This document shows, piece after piece, positions 45,421-52,171 of a stretch of DNA of 64,000 bases. This DNA comes from an uncultured Porphyromonadaceae bacterium. Lineage in GTDB: Bacteria > Bacteroidota > Bacteroidia > Bacteroidales > Muribaculaceae. Under the pieces are notes generated by a model that had not been told where the DNA came from, did no database searches, and saw only the letters and a program-made list of their open reading frames with translations. A program made the position numbers and the translations under genes. Each line of letters begins with the position of its first letter. Positions within the stretch are counted from its first letter, which is position 1. The stretch lies in the NCBI GenBank assembly GCA_948467675.1, contig CAOKFI010000009.1, forward strand, positions 1-64,000, read 5' to 3'.

Positions 45421-46409
45421 TAAGGGATGGAACGTAATAGAGTCTGACGCAGCAATATCTCCAGACCGAAGAATCCGAATGCGAGCCAGGCCCACAATAT
45501 ATAGTTGTCTTCGGTATGGGAGAAGTGACGAACGTCCATCTCGGTCTTTTCCAGTTTATCGATCTCGTCGAAGATTTCAGCGAGTACATTGTTGCCTGTG
45601 GCGCGGAAATAGCGCCCTCCGGTTGTATCGGCGATGTTCTGCAAGGTGGTTTCATCGATTATTACCGGCATTTTCACATATTCCACACGTCCGAACGCAT
45701 TGATCGACGGATAATCTGCTTCGCCGTTTTTGCCGATGCCGATTGTATATACCTTTATGCCTAACTCGTGGGCTATATCTGCCGCCGTCTGTGGAGCCAC
45801 TATGCCGGTGTTGTTGGAGCCGTCGGTAAGTAATATTATGCTTTTTGATTTGGCTTTGCCTTCCTTGATGCGGTTTATGGCCGATACGAGTCCGTCGCCG
45901 ATAGCGGTGCCGTCTTCGAGCATTCCCATCTTGATGTCGTTGATATAGTTGGCGAGCAACGCCCGGTCGGTAGTCATAGGTACCGCAGTGAAACTTTCGC
46001 CGGCAAATATAACCAGACCGATGTTGTCGCTCTCACGTCCGGATACGAAGTGTGATGCAACCGCTTTTGCCGCTTCGAGTCTGTCCGGTTTGAAGTCGCG
46101 GGCAAGCATACTGGAGGATATATCGAGCGCCAGTACGATGTCGGTGCCTTCTGTGGTGGATGTGCGCCAGCTGTCGCGGGTCTGAGGCCTGGCAAGTATT
46201 ATGATTACACAAGCTATCGCAGCCATTCGGAGAGCGAATAGCAGATGTCGCAGGTATTGTTTATAGCTACGTGGCAGGCTGGCATAAGGTCTTACGGTCG
46301 ATACTGCGAGCCACGGAGCCGAGTTGCGTTGCCGTAGTATATACCAGATGACAAGCGGTATGATTACCGCCAGAAACCACAGGTAGTTTGGATGGGCAAA
46401 TTGGATCAT
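45420..46409 (-). CDS. batA: BatA: von Willebrand A domain membrane protein
   Basis: A 329-residue inner-membrane protein similar to BatB. The N-terminal hydrophobic part (FAHPNYLWFLAVIIPLVIWYI) and a second membrane segment precede a von Willebrand A domain with an intact MIDAS (ALDISSSMLA, then ILLTDGSNNTG). A final membrane segment lies near residue 305. It overlaps the upstream unrecognised gene by four bases and batB by one. Confidence 0.92.
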   Translation of the reverse strand: MIQFAHPNYLWFLAVIIPLVIWYILRQRNSAPWLAVSTVRPYASLPRSYKQYLRHLLFALRMAAIACVIIILARPQTRDSWRTSTTEGTDIVLALDISSSMLARDFKPDRLEAAKAVASHFVSGRESDNIGLVIFAGESFTAVPMTTDRALLANYINDIKMGMLEDGTAIGDGLVSAINRIKEGKAKSKSIILLTDGSNNTGIVAPQTAADIAHELGIKVYTIGIGKNGEADYPSINAFGRVEYVKMPVIIDETTLQNIADTTGGRYFRATGNNVLAEIFDEIDKLEKTEMDVRHFSHTEDNYILWAWLAFGFFGLEILLRQTLLRSIP

Positions 46410-47413
46410 TTCTTTTCAGTGGCTGATGGTTCGACGTTTTTGTCATCATTGTCCTTGACTTCGCTTCCGGATGATTCTGCAACCGGTTTTGTAGCTTCGA
46501 CAAACTGCATGGCCGAATTGAATGATTTGGCGTTGTCGGACGGCAATGGGCGTACTTTCGCGAATTTTACAAAGTCGGCTACTTCAAGGATCTGTGATAC
46601 ATATCTGTTGTTCGGACGTGTGTCCTCGTTTGCGTTTATGGCTGCACGTATCTGAGTGGACGTCATCTCCATTGCATTTATCCCGAACCGTTGGTCGAGA
46701 TATACACGGAGTATATCTGTCAGACGGGTGTAGAATTCTTTCTCCCGGCCATGTTCACAGAGCTGCATATCGCGCAGGGCATTCAGTTGCTGCATGGCCA
46801 ACTCGTATGGGGGTACCGGTTTCGGTTTGGGCAGAATTGCAGCTTTTATATCTTTCTTGCGGAATATGAAATACAGAACAGTAGCAGCGATTAATGCAAT
46901 TACGGGAAGGATCCATCCCCAGTTATCGGTTATCCAGTCGGGAAGGAAGTCCCAGAAATGAGACCATATCGACAGGGTGTCGCCGTATGTATGGATTGTG
47001 GCCATAGTGTCGACTGGTACAGGGATCACTTTCAGCGCAAGTTCTTCGGTACGGAATGTGTCGGATCCAGCTACGTAGGCAAGAGGCGGCAATACATACA
47101 ATCCGGAGTCGAATGACTGGATTATCAATGTACGGTCGATCTGGATGCGGTTGTTCCCAAGATCGGTGGTGTCTGCATAGAGTTTGCGGGATAGTTCCAC
47201 TTCCGGAGCCAGAGTTCTGGCGCTGTCGATAAGCCATTTGCCATGTACGGATGCATCCTGCACTACCGAGGTGTGTATGGCAGTCTGCTTGCCCATGAGT
47301 ATGTAGGCCGAGTCGAGCGATGCGGTAACCTGTACCGGAACGGCATCAGCGCTGACTGCGCCTGCCGAGATGGCACATCCCGCAATGATTTTATTTAGTA
47401 AGTTCAGCTTCAT
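46406..47413 (-). CDS. Unrecognised Bat-operon membrane protein
   Basis: A 335-residue protein with a signal peptide (1-23), a beta-rich periplasmic part (residues 25-165), one membrane segment (about 169-189), and a cytoplasmic helical domain (220-335) with a basic loop FRKKDIKAA. I do not recognise a family with certainty; the layout recalls DUF4381-type proteins seen in MoxR-Bat operons. It lies between DUF58 and batA, with a four-base overlap to batA. It is probably a structural part of the complex. Confidence 0.75.
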   Translation of the reverse strand: MKLNLLNKIIAGCAISAGAVSADAVPVQVTASLDSAYILMGKQTAIHTSVVQDASVHGKWLIDSARTLAPEVELSRKLYADTTDLGNNRIQIDRTLIIQSFDSGLYVLPPLAYVAGSDTFRTEELALKVIPVPVDTMATIHTYGDTLSIWSHFWDFLPDWITDNWGWILPVIALIAATVLYFIFRKKDIKAAILPKPKPVPPYELAMQQLNALRDMQLCEHGREKEFYTRLTDILRVYLDQRFGINAMEMTSTQIRAAINANEDTRPNNRYVSQILEVADFVKFAKVRPLPSDNAKSFNSAMQFVEATKPVAESSGSEVKDNDDKNVEPSATEKK

Positions 47414-47417
47414 CTGC

Positions 47418-48293
47418 TTATTTTACTCCACGTTTCTTAAACAATCCCATCAGTGCTTTGACATAGTCTTCGTCGGTCGCTACGGATGCTATCTCGACCC
47501 TGGAACGGTTCATTATCTCGTTCATCTGCTGCTGGCGCTGATACCACCATTTGCCGAACGCCTGGCGGACTTTTGCCGAACTGGTATCTACCCATTGCTC
47601 GATTCCGGTTTCAAGATCGCGCAGACGCATCAGACCGACGTCCGGCAGCTGCGAGTCACGACGGTCATATACCTGTATGGCTGTAACGTCATGTTTGTTG
47701 GCTGCTATAGACAGTGGTTTGCTGTAATCATGAGCATCGATGTAGTCAGAGATGACAAACGTAGTACACCGTTTCTTGAGCGCGTCGGTCATATATTGAA
47801 GCGCCATGCCTATATCTGTACCGCGGCTTTCAGGTGTGTAGTCGAGCAGTTCGCGGATGATCAGAAGAATATGCTTGCGCCCTTTCTTCGGAGGTATGAA
47901 CTTCTCTATTTTGTCGGTGAAGAATATGACGCCGATCTTGTCGTTGTTCTGTGAGGCCGAGAATGCGAGTGTGGCCGCTATCTCTGCGATCATCTCGCGT
48001 TTTTCGACCCCTACAGCACCGAACTCACGGCTGCCCGAGATGTCGACAAGCAACATGACAGTCAACTCACGCTCTTCCTCATAGACTTTTACGTACGGAT
48101 GATTCTGGCGTGCTGTTACGTTCCAGTCGATATCGCGTATGTCGTCGCCATACTGGTACTCCCGCACTTCACTGAACATCATACCGCGTCCTTTGAACGC
48201 AGAGTGATATTCGCCGGCAAAGATGTTTTGCGACAGACCACGGGTCTTGATCTCGATCTTGCGGACTTTTTTCAGAAGCTCTTTAGCATCCAT
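47418..48293 (-). CDS. DUF58 domain protein of the MoxR-Bat operon
   Basis: A 291-residue cytoplasmic protein of the DUF58 family, recognised by the motif VREYQYGDDIRDIDWNVTAR followed by a von Willebrand-like fold (LLVDISGSREFG). Members accompany MoxR ATPases and membrane Bat proteins and are thought to act as adaptors. It starts 15 bases after moxR and ends five bases before the next gene. Confidence 0.92.
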   Translation of the reverse strand: MDAKELLKKVRKIEIKTRGLSQNIFAGEYHSAFKGRGMMFSEVREYQYGDDIRDIDWNVTARQNHPYVKVYEEERELTVMLLVDISGSREFGAVGVEKREMIAEIAATLAFSASQNNDKIGVIFFTDKIEKFIPPKKGRKHILLIIRELLDYTPESRGTDIGMALQYMTDALKKRCTTFVISDYIDAHDYSKPLSIAANKHDVTAIQVYDRRDSQLPDVGLMRLRDLETGIEQWVDTSSAKVRQAFGKWWYQRQQQMNEIMNRSRVEIASVATDEDYVKALMGLFKKRGVK

Positions 48294-48308
48294 GGTAGCT
48301 TCAGACGA

Positions 48309-49304
48309 TTAGGGAACCTGTACGCGATCAAGTATATTGGATATGATCTCGTCGGGGGTTATGTTGTTGGCTTCTGCTTCGTATGTGAGACCGATACGGT
48401 GACGCAGAACGTCGTGGCATACGGCACGTACATCCTCTGGTACTACGAATCCGCGCTGGCGAAGGAATGCGTACGAACGGGCGGCGCGTGCCAGACTGAT
48501 TGACGCACGGGGCGATGCTCCGAACGATATGATGCTTGTCAGGTCATTGAGATTGTAGTCAGCCGGGAAGCGGGTCGCAAATACGATATCCACGATATAG
48601 CGTTCGATTTTCTCGTCGATATAGATCTGTTCCACAACCTGCTGGGCGCTGATTATCTCTTCGGGTTTCAGAAGCGGTTTCACATCCGGTTTCTCGCGGG
48701 CTATGTTCTGGCGTATGATGAGTTTCTCCTCGTCGCGAGTGGGATAGCCAATAATCACTTTCAGAAGGAAACGGTCTACCTGGGCTTCGGGGAGCGGATA
48801 TGTTCCTTCCTGTTCGATAGGGTTCTGCGTTGCCATTACAAGGAATGGCTCGTCGAGTTTGAATGAATCTTTTCCGATTGTGACCTGGCGCTCCTGCATG
48901 GCCTCAAGCAGTGCACTCTGCACCTTTGCCGGAGCACGGTTGATCTCGTCGGCCAGTACGAAGTTGGCGAATATGGGGCCGCGCTTCACCTGGAACTGCT
49001 CTGATTTGGCACTATATACCATGGTTCCGATCACATCGGCAGGGAGCAGGTCGGGAGTGAACTGGATTCGGCTGTATTTGGCATCTATAAGTTGCGAAAG
49101 AGTCTTGATGGCCAGTGTCTTGGCGAGGCCGGGCACGCCTTCGAGCAGTACATGGCCATTGCTGAGGAGAGCAATCAACAGAGAATCGATCAAGTGTTTC
49201 TGGCCTACGATGGTCTGATCCATCCCCTTGGTGATTAGATTTACGAAATCGCTCTTGCTCGAAACTAAGTCGTTGAGTTCACGAATGTTTACGGAGTCAC
49301 TCAT
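48309..49304 (-). CDS. MoxR family AAA ATPase
   Basis: A 331-residue AAA+ ATPase with Walker A GVPGLAKT, Walker B VLADEINRAPAKVQSALLEAMQE, sensor 1 MATQNPIEQEGTYPLPEAQVDRF and a C-terminal lid. MoxR proteins act as chaperones that mature von Willebrand A proteins such as BatA and BatB. It is the first gene of the eight-gene operon, and a TAATTTTG box lies 73 bases upstream. Confidence 0.95.
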   Translation of the reverse strand: MSDSVNIRELNDLVSSKSDFVNLITKGMDQTIVGQKHLIDSLLIALLSNGHVLLEGVPGLAKTLAIKTLSQLIDAKYSRIQFTPDLLPADVIGTMVYSAKSEQFQVKRGPIFANFVLADEINRAPAKVQSALLEAMQERQVTIGKDSFKLDEPFLVMATQNPIEQEGTYPLPEAQVDRFLLKVIIGYPTRDEEKLIIRQNIAREKPDVKPLLKPEEIISAQQVVEQIYIDEKIERYIVDIVFATRFPADYNLNDLTSIISFGASPRASISLARAARSYAFLRQRGFVVPEDVRAVCHDVLRHRIGLTYEAEANNITPDEIISNILDRVQVP

Positions 49305-49434: not shown

Positions 49435-49466
49435 ATAAGTTTATCAGCGTAAACGGTTAAACTTAT
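49435..49466 (-). terminator. Weak AT-rich hairpin at the end of the HU-LysM operon
   Basis: ATAAGTTTA and TAAACTTAT (9 bp) enclose a 14-base loop and include the stop codon of the HU-LysM gene. It is followed on the minus strand by an AT-rich stretch without a clean T run. Confidence 0.35.
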
Positions 49467-50539
49467 TTTTGATAAGGAGCGTAAATTTCACTTGATTTTA
49501 ATTTCGCTTTCCGTATGCTTTCGGAACTGTGTCTGTCGATGCCATATTTCTCAGCAGGCGGTATAACTACAACGGTTCCGGGCTTGATTCGGTTCGGATC
49601 GCCGAGTTTTTCGGCGTTTTCTTCGTATATGTAAACCCAGAAATCCATCAGGCCGTAGTGCTGGCGAGCCATAGTAGTCAGATATCGGTTTCGGCGTATA
49701 GTATCGGTGACAGCTATTGCTGTCTGTTGCCGGATCGCTTCGTCATCGTTCGTTGTTATAGCCTTCGGTTCAGTGATTTCAACGGAGTCGGATATCAGTA
49801 TTGTATCTGCAAGGGTGTCGGGTATTACATGTGTTTCAGAATACGGATCCACATATTCCTGGATTTCGATATCGATGCCGCCGTTTTCAGTATTGATCGT
49901 TACGCTTGGAGCCATAAGGTATCCGGTTAGAAAGCATCCTGCGCCCCAGAATATGAATAGCAATATGATCACCAGCAACTTCCAGCTTTGTGACTGATGA
50001 GGTTGTAAAGTTGCAGTGTCGGTAATGGGCTCTGTCGATGCCTCATCACCATCGGTCTGCGATGATGTCGGTTCCTGTTCCGGCTCTGTGATGTCGGCTG
50101 AGTCTGTATTGGCAGGCATGTCGGCCGGTTCTTCGGTTGTATTGGAGTCTTGTATTTCCGGCTGTATAGGGGTAGCTTCACAATGGGACTCGGGTGCCGA
50201 TTCGGCTGATATATCAGTAGCGTTATTGTCGGATGCTGTTTCGTCGATTGCCAGTTCGATCATGTCGGGAGTGATCGACGGATCGAGTTCGATGGCTTCG
50301 AAAGCTGCAAATGGCAGATTTATGCCATCGGCAAACTCGCGATCAGGCTCTAACACCGGTTCTCCATCGATTACTGCAAACCGGCCGAGTCCTTTGATCA
50401 CAACGTCGTCATTGTCGGCAAGGCGTTCGCTTATCAGTACGAACAGGTCTTTAATGAACGATTCGCTTTCGGTTCGGGATATTCCAGTGGCCGAGGCTAT
50501 TGCCTCGGTAAGTTCCGGCAGTGTTATAGTTCGGTTCAT
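49463..50539 (-). CDS. HU-like domain, transmembrane segment and LysM domain in one protein
   Basis: A 358-residue protein with an unusual layout. Residues 1-98 are an HU-like DNA-binding fold (ITLPELTEAIASATGIS, VIKGLGRFAVIDGE) whose DNA arm is short and acidic rather than RNP-tipped. Residues 100-183 are an acidic, Ser/Thr/Pro/Glu-rich linker. One membrane helix lies at 186-208 (WKLLVIILLFIFWGAGCFL). The part beyond it holds a LysM-like domain at about 285-328 (LTTMARQHYGLMDFWVYIYEENAEKL, IKPGTVVVIPP). LysM binds peptidoglycan, so the protein could link the nucleoid to the wall. I start at 50539, whose ATG overlaps the stop of the upstream HU gene (ATGA). Confidence 0.82.
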   Translation of the reverse strand: MNRTITLPELTEAIASATGISRTESESFIKDLFVLISERLADNDDVVIKGLGRFAVIDGEPVLEPDREFADGINLPFAAFEAIELDPSITPDMIELAIDETASDNNATDISAESAPESHCEATPIQPEIQDSNTTEEPADMPANTDSADITEPEQEPTSSQTDGDEASTEPITDTATLQPHQSQSWKLLVIILLFIFWGAGCFLTGYLMAPSVTINTENGGIDIEIQEYVDPYSETHVIPDTLADTILISDSVEITEPKAITTNDDEAIRQQTAIAVTDTIRRNRYLTTMARQHYGLMDFWVYIYEENAEKLGDPNRIKPGTVVVIPPAEKYGIDRHSSESIRKAKLKSSEIYAPYQK

Positions 50540-50817
50540 TTCTGGTCGGTAGTTTTTTTGCGCAGGAGTGAACTTGGTCTGAATGTTACCGTAATTTCCG
50601 GCGGCAACAGCATTTTCATTCCAGTAACGAGATCTGTGCTTATGCGTTCTTCGTGTTTTGTCGGTTCGAAGTTGCCGAATCCCGGTATCGCCACGGTATC
50701 GAGTTCGGCGCATCGTTCACGTATGGCTGTGGTAATGGCGGTCAGTAGCGATGCGATATCTTTCGCGTCACGTCCTTGCCGTTGTGCGAGTCGGGCAGTA
50801 AGTTGCTTATGGGTCAT
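50536..50817 (-). CDS. HU family DNA-binding protein
   Basis: A 93-residue HU-type nucleoid protein (HKQLTARLAQRQGRDAKDIASLL, VAIPGFGNFEPTKHEER, then LLPPEITVTFRPSSLLRKK). The GFGNFE turn is typical; the beta-arm is basic at the end. It overlaps alkD upstream and the HU-TM-LysM gene downstream by four bases each, so all three are translationally coupled. It may pair with the HU-like domain of its membrane partner, which is inference. Confidence 0.88.
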   Translation of the reverse strand: MTHKQLTARLAQRQGRDAKDIASLLTAITTAIRERCAELDTVAIPGFGNFEPTKHEERISTDLVTGMKMLLPPEITVTFRPSSLLRKKTTDQK

Positions 50818-51542
50818 TTGTCGGGATACGTTTTCAGGTTCATGTAATGTTTCCGTTGATCCGGAGATAGTCGCTCTATGGCATATCGCAGGGCGGTTCG
50901 TGGCATGGATGCTGCATGGGAGTCGAGAAATCTTAGCAATGTATCAGTATCGCGTTTGCCGATCTCGCGGAGCATCCATCCTGTAGCTTTGTGGATGAGT
51001 GGATGATGGTGAGTCAGGTAACGTTCGGACAGGCGTAACGTGTCGTCGAAACGTCCGTGACGTATCAGCGTCATTGTCGATACTATGGCGATACGCTGTC
51101 GCCACAGATTTTCGTCGAGACTAAGTCTGTCAAGGACTCCGCTGTCGGGATATATGACCAGATGGGCTCCCAGTATGTATGGAGCCGACAGGTCTACCAG
51201 ATCCCAGTTGTTGGCCCATGTCGAGTGATCGAGATAGAACTGCACGATATGCTGTTTATGTCCATCGTTTTTTGCTTTGCCGTATAATGCAACCAGGGCG
51301 AGTAGTCCGGACAGGCGGAACTCATGTATCTCGTGGCGGCACATTGCGCCGATTTCGTCGATCGATGCTTCCGGAGCATATTTGCGGGCGATCCTGCGGT
51401 TGTCAGGAACTGTAAGACCTATAAACCGGTCTCCATGACCGTATTCTCCGGGTTTTGTCTTGAAAAAGGAAGACAGTATCTCTATCTTTTCTGGACGCGC
51501 CGCCTGGATCAACTCCTCTTGCCAGCGTTCGATCAGTGACAT
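50814..51542 (-). CDS. AlkD-type DNA alkylation repair protein
   Basis: A 242-residue helical-repeat protein of the AlkC/AlkD family (HEAT-like), with GDRFIGLTVPDNRRIARKY at the start and the conserved WANNWDLVDLSAPYILG core. The family's glycosylases remove alkylated bases; the active-site Trp/Asp set lies in that core. It ends in a four-base overlap with the HU gene. It lies 26 bases after engB. Confidence 0.9.
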   Translation of the reverse strand: MSLIERWQEELIQAARPEKIEILSSFFKTKPGEYGHGDRFIGLTVPDNRRIARKYAPEASIDEIGAMCRHEIHEFRLSGLLALVALYGKAKNDGHKQHIVQFYLDHSTWANNWDLVDLSAPYILGAHLVIYPDSGVLDRLSLDENLWRQRIAIVSTMTLIRHGRFDDTLRLSERYLTHHHPLIHKATGWMLREIGKRDTDTLLRFLDSHAASMPRTALRYAIERLSPDQRKHYMNLKTYPDK

Positions 51543-51568: not shown

Positions 51569-52171
51569 TTATTCAAGCGGTAGCTTGTTCATGTCTTCAA
51601 TGTAGTCGAGCAATTCCTGCCGTCCGCGCCCGTCTTCGCTGGAGGTCATAAATACCGGAGGCAACTCTTCCCAGCGTTCCAGAAGTCTGGCGCAATAGTC
51701 CGATACTTTTTTTGCTCCGGCAACTTTTCCTGATTTGTCGAGCTTGGTAAACACGATACTGAAAGGAATCTCATTCTCGCCTAACCATTCCATGAACTCA
51801 AGGTCGATCTTTTGAGGCTCTAAACGCGAATCGATCAGTACAAACAGATTGGTCATCTGCGGTCGGTTAAGGATATACGATTCGATAATGCGCTGCAGTT
51901 CGTCGCGCGATGATTTGCTGCGGCGTGCATATCCGTATCCGGGAAGGTCGACTATATACCAGCTGTTGTTGATCAGAAAATGATTTATGAGCATGGTTTT
52001 GCCAGGCGTGGCCGAAGTCATGGCGAGTTTTCTGTTGCCGGTAAGCATATTTATGAGAGATGATTTGCCTACATTGCTACGTCCGATGAAAGCATATTCG
52101 TGATGATGCCCTTCCGGGCATTTCCTCACATCGGTATTGCTGATTACGAACTTGGCCGTGTTGATTTCCAT
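51569..52171 (-). CDS. engB: Ribosome-biogenesis GTPase EngB (YihA/YsxC)
   Basis: A 200-residue GTPase needed for assembly of the large ribosomal subunit. It has G1 GRSNVGKSS, the TPGKT switch, DLPGYGYA (G3) and TKLD (G4). The start at 52171 is where family members begin; the longer frame to 52267 runs through the promoter region. It heads the engB-alkD-HU-HU/LysM group. Confidence 0.96.

Follow-up and report, generated by a model that had tools for sequence, protein, structure and literature searches.

The closest described relatives of the locus analysed here are bacterial proteins in which two tandem HU domains (HU-CCDC81_bac_1 and HU-CCDC81_bac_2) are followed by a transmembrane (TM) segment and a SPOR domain. 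A role in chromosome partition was reportedly proposed for these CCDC81-type (SPOR) proteins by Burroughs and co-workers in Cell Cycle in 2017. Eukaryotic CCDC81 has roles that do not involve DNA. The folds of LysM and SPOR are unrelated, and peptidoglycan binding is common to both. The LysM protein Kbp of Escherichia coli is small and soluble and also carries a BON domain. To our knowledge, the attachment of the chromosome to the envelope in Bacteroidota has been little studied. A literature search found nothing on HU-LysM proteins or on the bacterial CCDC81 clade.

The window, which is the whole 64,000-nucleotide stretch of DNA that was analysed, encodes a soluble HU and an HU-TM-LysM fusion in adjacent genes (Table 1). 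These two proteins probably constitute one envelope-anchored HU heterodimer. At the level of the wider family, its most likely job is to keep the nucleoid, or a segment of DNA, attached to the envelope, and its DNA arms have mostly been lost in the window's family.

Table 1. Features of the HU-LysM locus and its neighbours in the window
Feature	Coordinates	Strand	Remarks
MoxR, DUF58 and Bat-like genes	46406..49304	-	Adjoin the pair in at least 81/139 loci, in many families
HU-TM-LysM fusion protein, 358 aa	49463..50539	-	Start 50539, stop included; orthologues in 134/136 family genomes
Periplasmic LysM domain (predicted), residues 277-330	49550..49711	-	NCBIfam PRK11198; AF2 model resembles Kbp 7pvc, Z 7.4
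Single transmembrane helix (predicted), residues 185-208, N-terminus inside	49916..49987	-	AF2 helix; charge asymmetry in 127 relatives
Acidic linker (predicted cytoplasmic), residues 99-184, net charge -22	49988..50245	-	Negative net charge in 99% of the relatives measured
HU fold of the fusion, residues 1-80, with a short hairpin in place of the beta-arm	50300..50539	-	PF00216 1e-6; AF2 model resembles HU-beta 4p3v, Z 10.8
ATGA overlap, soluble HU/fusion	50536..50539	-	Read in the sequence
Soluble HU (putative partner of the fusion), 93 aa, a complete HU without the arm-tip proline	50536..50817	-	PF00216 4.3e-17; immediate upstream neighbour of the fusion in 131/139 loci
ATGA overlap, AlkD gene/soluble HU	50814..50817	-	
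AlkD-family gene, local neighbour	50814..51542	-	PF08713 2.9e-54
engB	51569..52171	-	

On the minus strand, the genes follow each other in the order engB, alkD, soluble HU and fusion, and 158 bp past the fusion lie moxR, then the DUF58 gene and then the Bat-like gene. The original prediction had treated alkD, the soluble HU gene and the fusion gene as one unit joined by ATGA overlaps. Both overlaps, the open reading frames and their strand are present in the sequence. The gene order in relatives upheld the unit for its last two genes and reduced it to those two. Among the 139 loci examined in detail, the gene immediately before the fusion, on the same strand, encoded a soluble HU in 131; the two genes overlapped in 93 of these, with a spacing of -4 in 46. 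In family f135, which belongs to the same phylum but lies outside the order, all 12 loci examined carried the split pair of soluble HU and HU-TM-LysM. The fusion was found in nearly all genomes of the window's family (Table 1) and in about 47 of the 247 genomes sampled across the order, in 19 families (a count taken from a table). A peptide-pattern search of named genomes gave no confirmed match.

The AlkD neighbour has a DNA_alkylation domain (PF08713) and matched the solved AlkD structure 3jx7 weakly (6e-7). Its overlap with the soluble HU gene in the window genome would be in keeping with a three-gene DNA repair unit at the envelope, but an AlkD gene was adjacent to the pair in none of the 138 other loci, and engB and the HU gene are immediate neighbours in genus g20, without AlkD between them. 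A repair unit of this kind is scarcely credible, and AlkD as a conserved partner of the HU pair is ruled out by gene order. The MoxR-Bat neighbourhood is old, since moxR stands beside the pair in so many loci. An Rfam search of the window and a search with a defence-system library gave no match, and a sigma-70 promoter scan performed no better on the window than on shuffles.

The fusion was modelled with AlphaFold2 from 32 sequences. An HU-like domain had been predicted at residues 1 to 98, and the model placed an HU fold at residues 5 to 78 (pLDDT of about 95), with E. coli HU-beta (4p3v) as the best structural match (1.0 Å over 70 residues). The Pfam HU/IHF family PF00216 matched residues 8 to 58 with 29.3 bits, against a curated cut-off of 22.4, indicating that the N-terminus is HU/IHF-like in both fold and sequence. 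The linker between HU and TM was acidic, as anticipated, and was mostly modelled with low confidence. One helix was modelled as the TM segment, close to the residues 186 to 208 given earlier. For the LysM-like domain, predicted at residues 285 to 328, the model showed a beta-alpha-alpha-beta fold (pLDDT of about 97) that matched E. coli Kbp, and PRK11198, an NCBIfam LysM protein model, matched residues 264 to 329 (E = 1.3e-5), so both fold and sequence identify the C-terminus as LysM. No match of Pfam PF01476 (LysM) was reported on the window protein.

The topology was assessed on 127 relatives that each had an HU domain, a TM segment and a LysM domain. Exactly one hydrophobic segment, the predicted TM helix, was present in 122 of them. 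On the HU side of this segment, the flank contained 393 K+R and 263 D+E residues; on the LysM side, the numbers were 189 and 289. Because this asymmetry obeys the positive-inside rule, the HU domain would be cytoplasmic and the LysM domain periplasmic, in agreement with the original prediction. The distance from TM to LysM had a median of 66 residues and a 5th percentile of 40.

The proposal that the HU domain of the fusion dimerizes with the soluble HU gained support from the conserved pairing and from natural fusions of the two. A soluble HU was not called in eight loci. Seven of these (L088, L090, L100, L102, L105, L106 and L107) encode instead a tandem protein, HU1-HU2-TM-LysM, in which HU1 was matched best by the soluble-HU profile and HU2 by the fusion-HU profile; the eighth is L119. 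Families f20 and f57 each contain both split and fused forms, and joining or splitting has therefore occurred more than once. When soluble HUs were mixed into the tandem alignment they fell on HU2, and the tandem model was therefore built without them. The naturally tandem protein of L100 was modelled, and residues 1 to 168 of the model resembled single-chain IHF (2iie) over both HU domains (Z 10.7, 2.8 Å over 120 residues). A profile containing the tandem proteins likewise had 2iie as its top match among all solved structures, in two matched stretches. Because tandem HUs stand in for the missing soluble HU in seven loci and one of them was modelled like single-chain IHF, the soluble HU and the HU of the fusion very probably form a heterodimer; the structural part of this argument comes from the model of a relative, not from the window pair itself.

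The model of the tandem protein (L100:3980-5182, model m5c02b8a8aebe) also matched 9io5_T, a putative chain of the Mycoplasma mobile gliding machinery (Z 11.2), and the putative ciliary doublet-microtubule chains 8snb_1K and 8v3l_A. These matches hint that paired HU folds may have non-DNA roles.

The same split organization is found in families f125 and f137, with SPOR in the position of LysM (PF05036, 5.7e-11 and 2.7e-10). The HU domains of these fusions matched HU-CCDC81_bac_2 (6.3e-8 and 1.6e-9, the second above the cut-off), and the soluble HU of f137 matched HU-CCDC81_bac_1 weakly (3.7e-5, just below the cut-off). The split soluble HU beside HU-TM-SPOR in these families (L205 to L207) is only 66 to 68 aa long. 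These three loci form a bridge from the LysM pair to the CCDC81-SPOR proteins. Tandem HU-HU-TM-SPOR proteins also exist, and split or fused HUs thus occur with LysM or SPOR in all four combinations. The window's own genome encodes one such tandem protein (CCDC81_bac_1/2, TM, SPOR) of 331 aa (L181:3152-4147, G000:C1), which matched PF18174 (1e-21), PF18175 (3e-13) and SPOR (1e-3) and whose HU2 is armless. The proteins of the window remained below the CCDC81_bac cut-offs, with 17.7 of 26 bits for the soluble HU (PF18174) and 13.5 of 35 bits for the fusion (PF18175). It is possible, although short of probable, that some Bacteroidota have two parallel, separately encoded links per cell, one with LysM and one with SPOR, in which an HU heterodimer bound to peptidoglycan attaches the chromosome to the wall, and that the LysM link is losing DNA binding and being repurposed in the window's family.

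Membership of the LysM family and the exchange with SPOR suggest that the LysM domain of the fusion binds peptidoglycan. Since SPOR takes the place of LysM on the same chassis, and these unrelated folds share peptidoglycan binding, reaching the wall is apparently what matters, and wall binding appears to be the selected property of the chassis. Against this, genus g9 and genome G023 keep HU-TM without LysM. The LysM-less loci are L064, L068 and L149 to L155, and no separate LysM gene of the fusion type was found when the genomes concerned (g9 and G023) were searched.

The DNA arms differ widely among relatives. In distant members the fusion carries a complete HU arm (GRNPQTG in L108, GVNPRTG in L194). 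An arm that lacks the proline (e.g., NVNTG) is retained across most of the order, and in most of the window's family the arm is deleted. In the window, the arm region of the fusion spans 41 aligned residues, compared with 61 in arm-bearing relatives, and is about 20 residues shorter, confirming the suspected loss of the basic arm. The soluble HU had been regarded as ordinary. Its arm, however, reads HEERISTDLVTGMK, and the tip, TDLVTG, has no proline. The long basic beta-arm with tip proline of DNA-bending HU and IHF is thus absent from both proteins, the fusion being armless and the soluble HU lacking the proline. In the 58 loci where the fusion arm is kept, the proline at the tip of the soluble HU arm is always present, and the mean charge of that arm is +3.7. 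In the 73 loci where the fusion arm is lost, the window included, the proline is lost in 66 and the mean arm charge is -0.4. Added together, the charges of the two HU domains have a median of +7 with the arm kept versus -3 with the arm lost, and the two HU domains of the window are together net acidic. On a MoxR+DUF58 tree, the fusion arm changed twice, and the tip proline changed in the same direction both times. With only these two well-supported independent events, too few for a statistical test, co-evolution of arm loss and tip-proline loss was not significant; the further events on a tree of the pair itself all lack support. The notion that the soluble HU supplies the DNA binding is weakened by these results, as the arm in this clade has lost both the kinking proline and its net positive charge, and the charges of the two HU domains sum to a negative value. 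Ordinary HU function is covered elsewhere in the genome, which encodes two further HU proteins, one of them having a canonical arm.

In the proposed arrangement, the soluble HU (HU1) would pair in the cytoplasm with the HU domain of the fusion (HU2). The acidic linker and the single TM helix would hold HU2 at the inner membrane, and the C-terminal LysM would bind peptidoglycan in the periplasm. At the family level, arm-bearing forms would fasten the nucleoid or some segment of DNA to the envelope. The pair of the window's family may have only weak affinity for DNA, or a different ligand altogether. A tether between chromosome and wall most simply accounts for the family taken together, DNA binding by the pair and tethering of the chromosome both being inferences. 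Such tethering is plausible for the family and doubtful in the window organism, whose HU pair no longer has the features that HU and IHF use to bend DNA. The nucleoid-wall link put forward originally is a good reading of the wider, arm-bearing form, but it may have eroded in the window genome.

A docking platform at the envelope would also fit the window's clade, in which the arms are lost and the pair is acidic overall. HU folds that no longer bind DNA would then bring a different protein to the membrane and wall, a role comparable to one proposed for eukaryotic CCDC81. The armless HU2 of the CCDC81-SPOR protein in the same genome and the ciliary doublet-microtubule matches of the tandem model point the same way, but relatives outside the window's family keep basic, proline-tipped HU1 arms and often a full HU2 arm, and no binding partner was identified. 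We regard docking as possible but rather unlikely. It is quite improbable that the pair is an envelope-to-nucleoid sensor, in which LysM would sense the condition of the wall and the fusion would bind or let go of the soluble HU, altering transcription, perhaps of the MoxR-DUF58-Bat genes. The recurrence of moxR beside the pair in many families is consistent with a sensor, as is the translational overlap, which suggests coordinated production. However, the link to MoxR/Bat is one of neighbourhood, the fusion has no cytoplasmic output domain, and no operator was found.

The conserved HU pair, with one protein soluble and the other predicted to run across the membrane to the wall, is a concrete two-gene target for work on a direct chromosome-peptidoglycan link. 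The pair is accompanied by natural fusions and an exchangeable wall domain, and the natural series of arm-bearing and armless forms could separate DNA binding from other roles.

Like HU and IHF (PF00216), the window pair has the HU fold and presumably forms a heterodimer, as in HU alpha-beta and IHF alpha-beta, and its tandem relative resembles engineered single-chain IHF. It differs from them in the membrane anchor and LysM of the fusion, in the lost arm and in the proline-less, near-neutral arm of the soluble partner. The LysM domain resembles that of E. coli Kbp/YgaU in fold and sequence, whereas in the window it forms the end of a membrane HU protein. The tandem-HU (HU-CCDC81_bac_1/bac_2)-TM-SPOR proteins share with the window pair two HUs, the second armless, then a TM segment and then a peptidoglycan-binding domain. 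In the window, by contrast, the two HUs are encoded by separate genes and not joined in one chain, as they are in seven relatives, and the single TM segment is followed by LysM instead of SPOR. The closest known kind is therefore the tandem-HU (CCDC81_bac)-TM-SPOR protein, and the window pair is its split-gene LysM counterpart.
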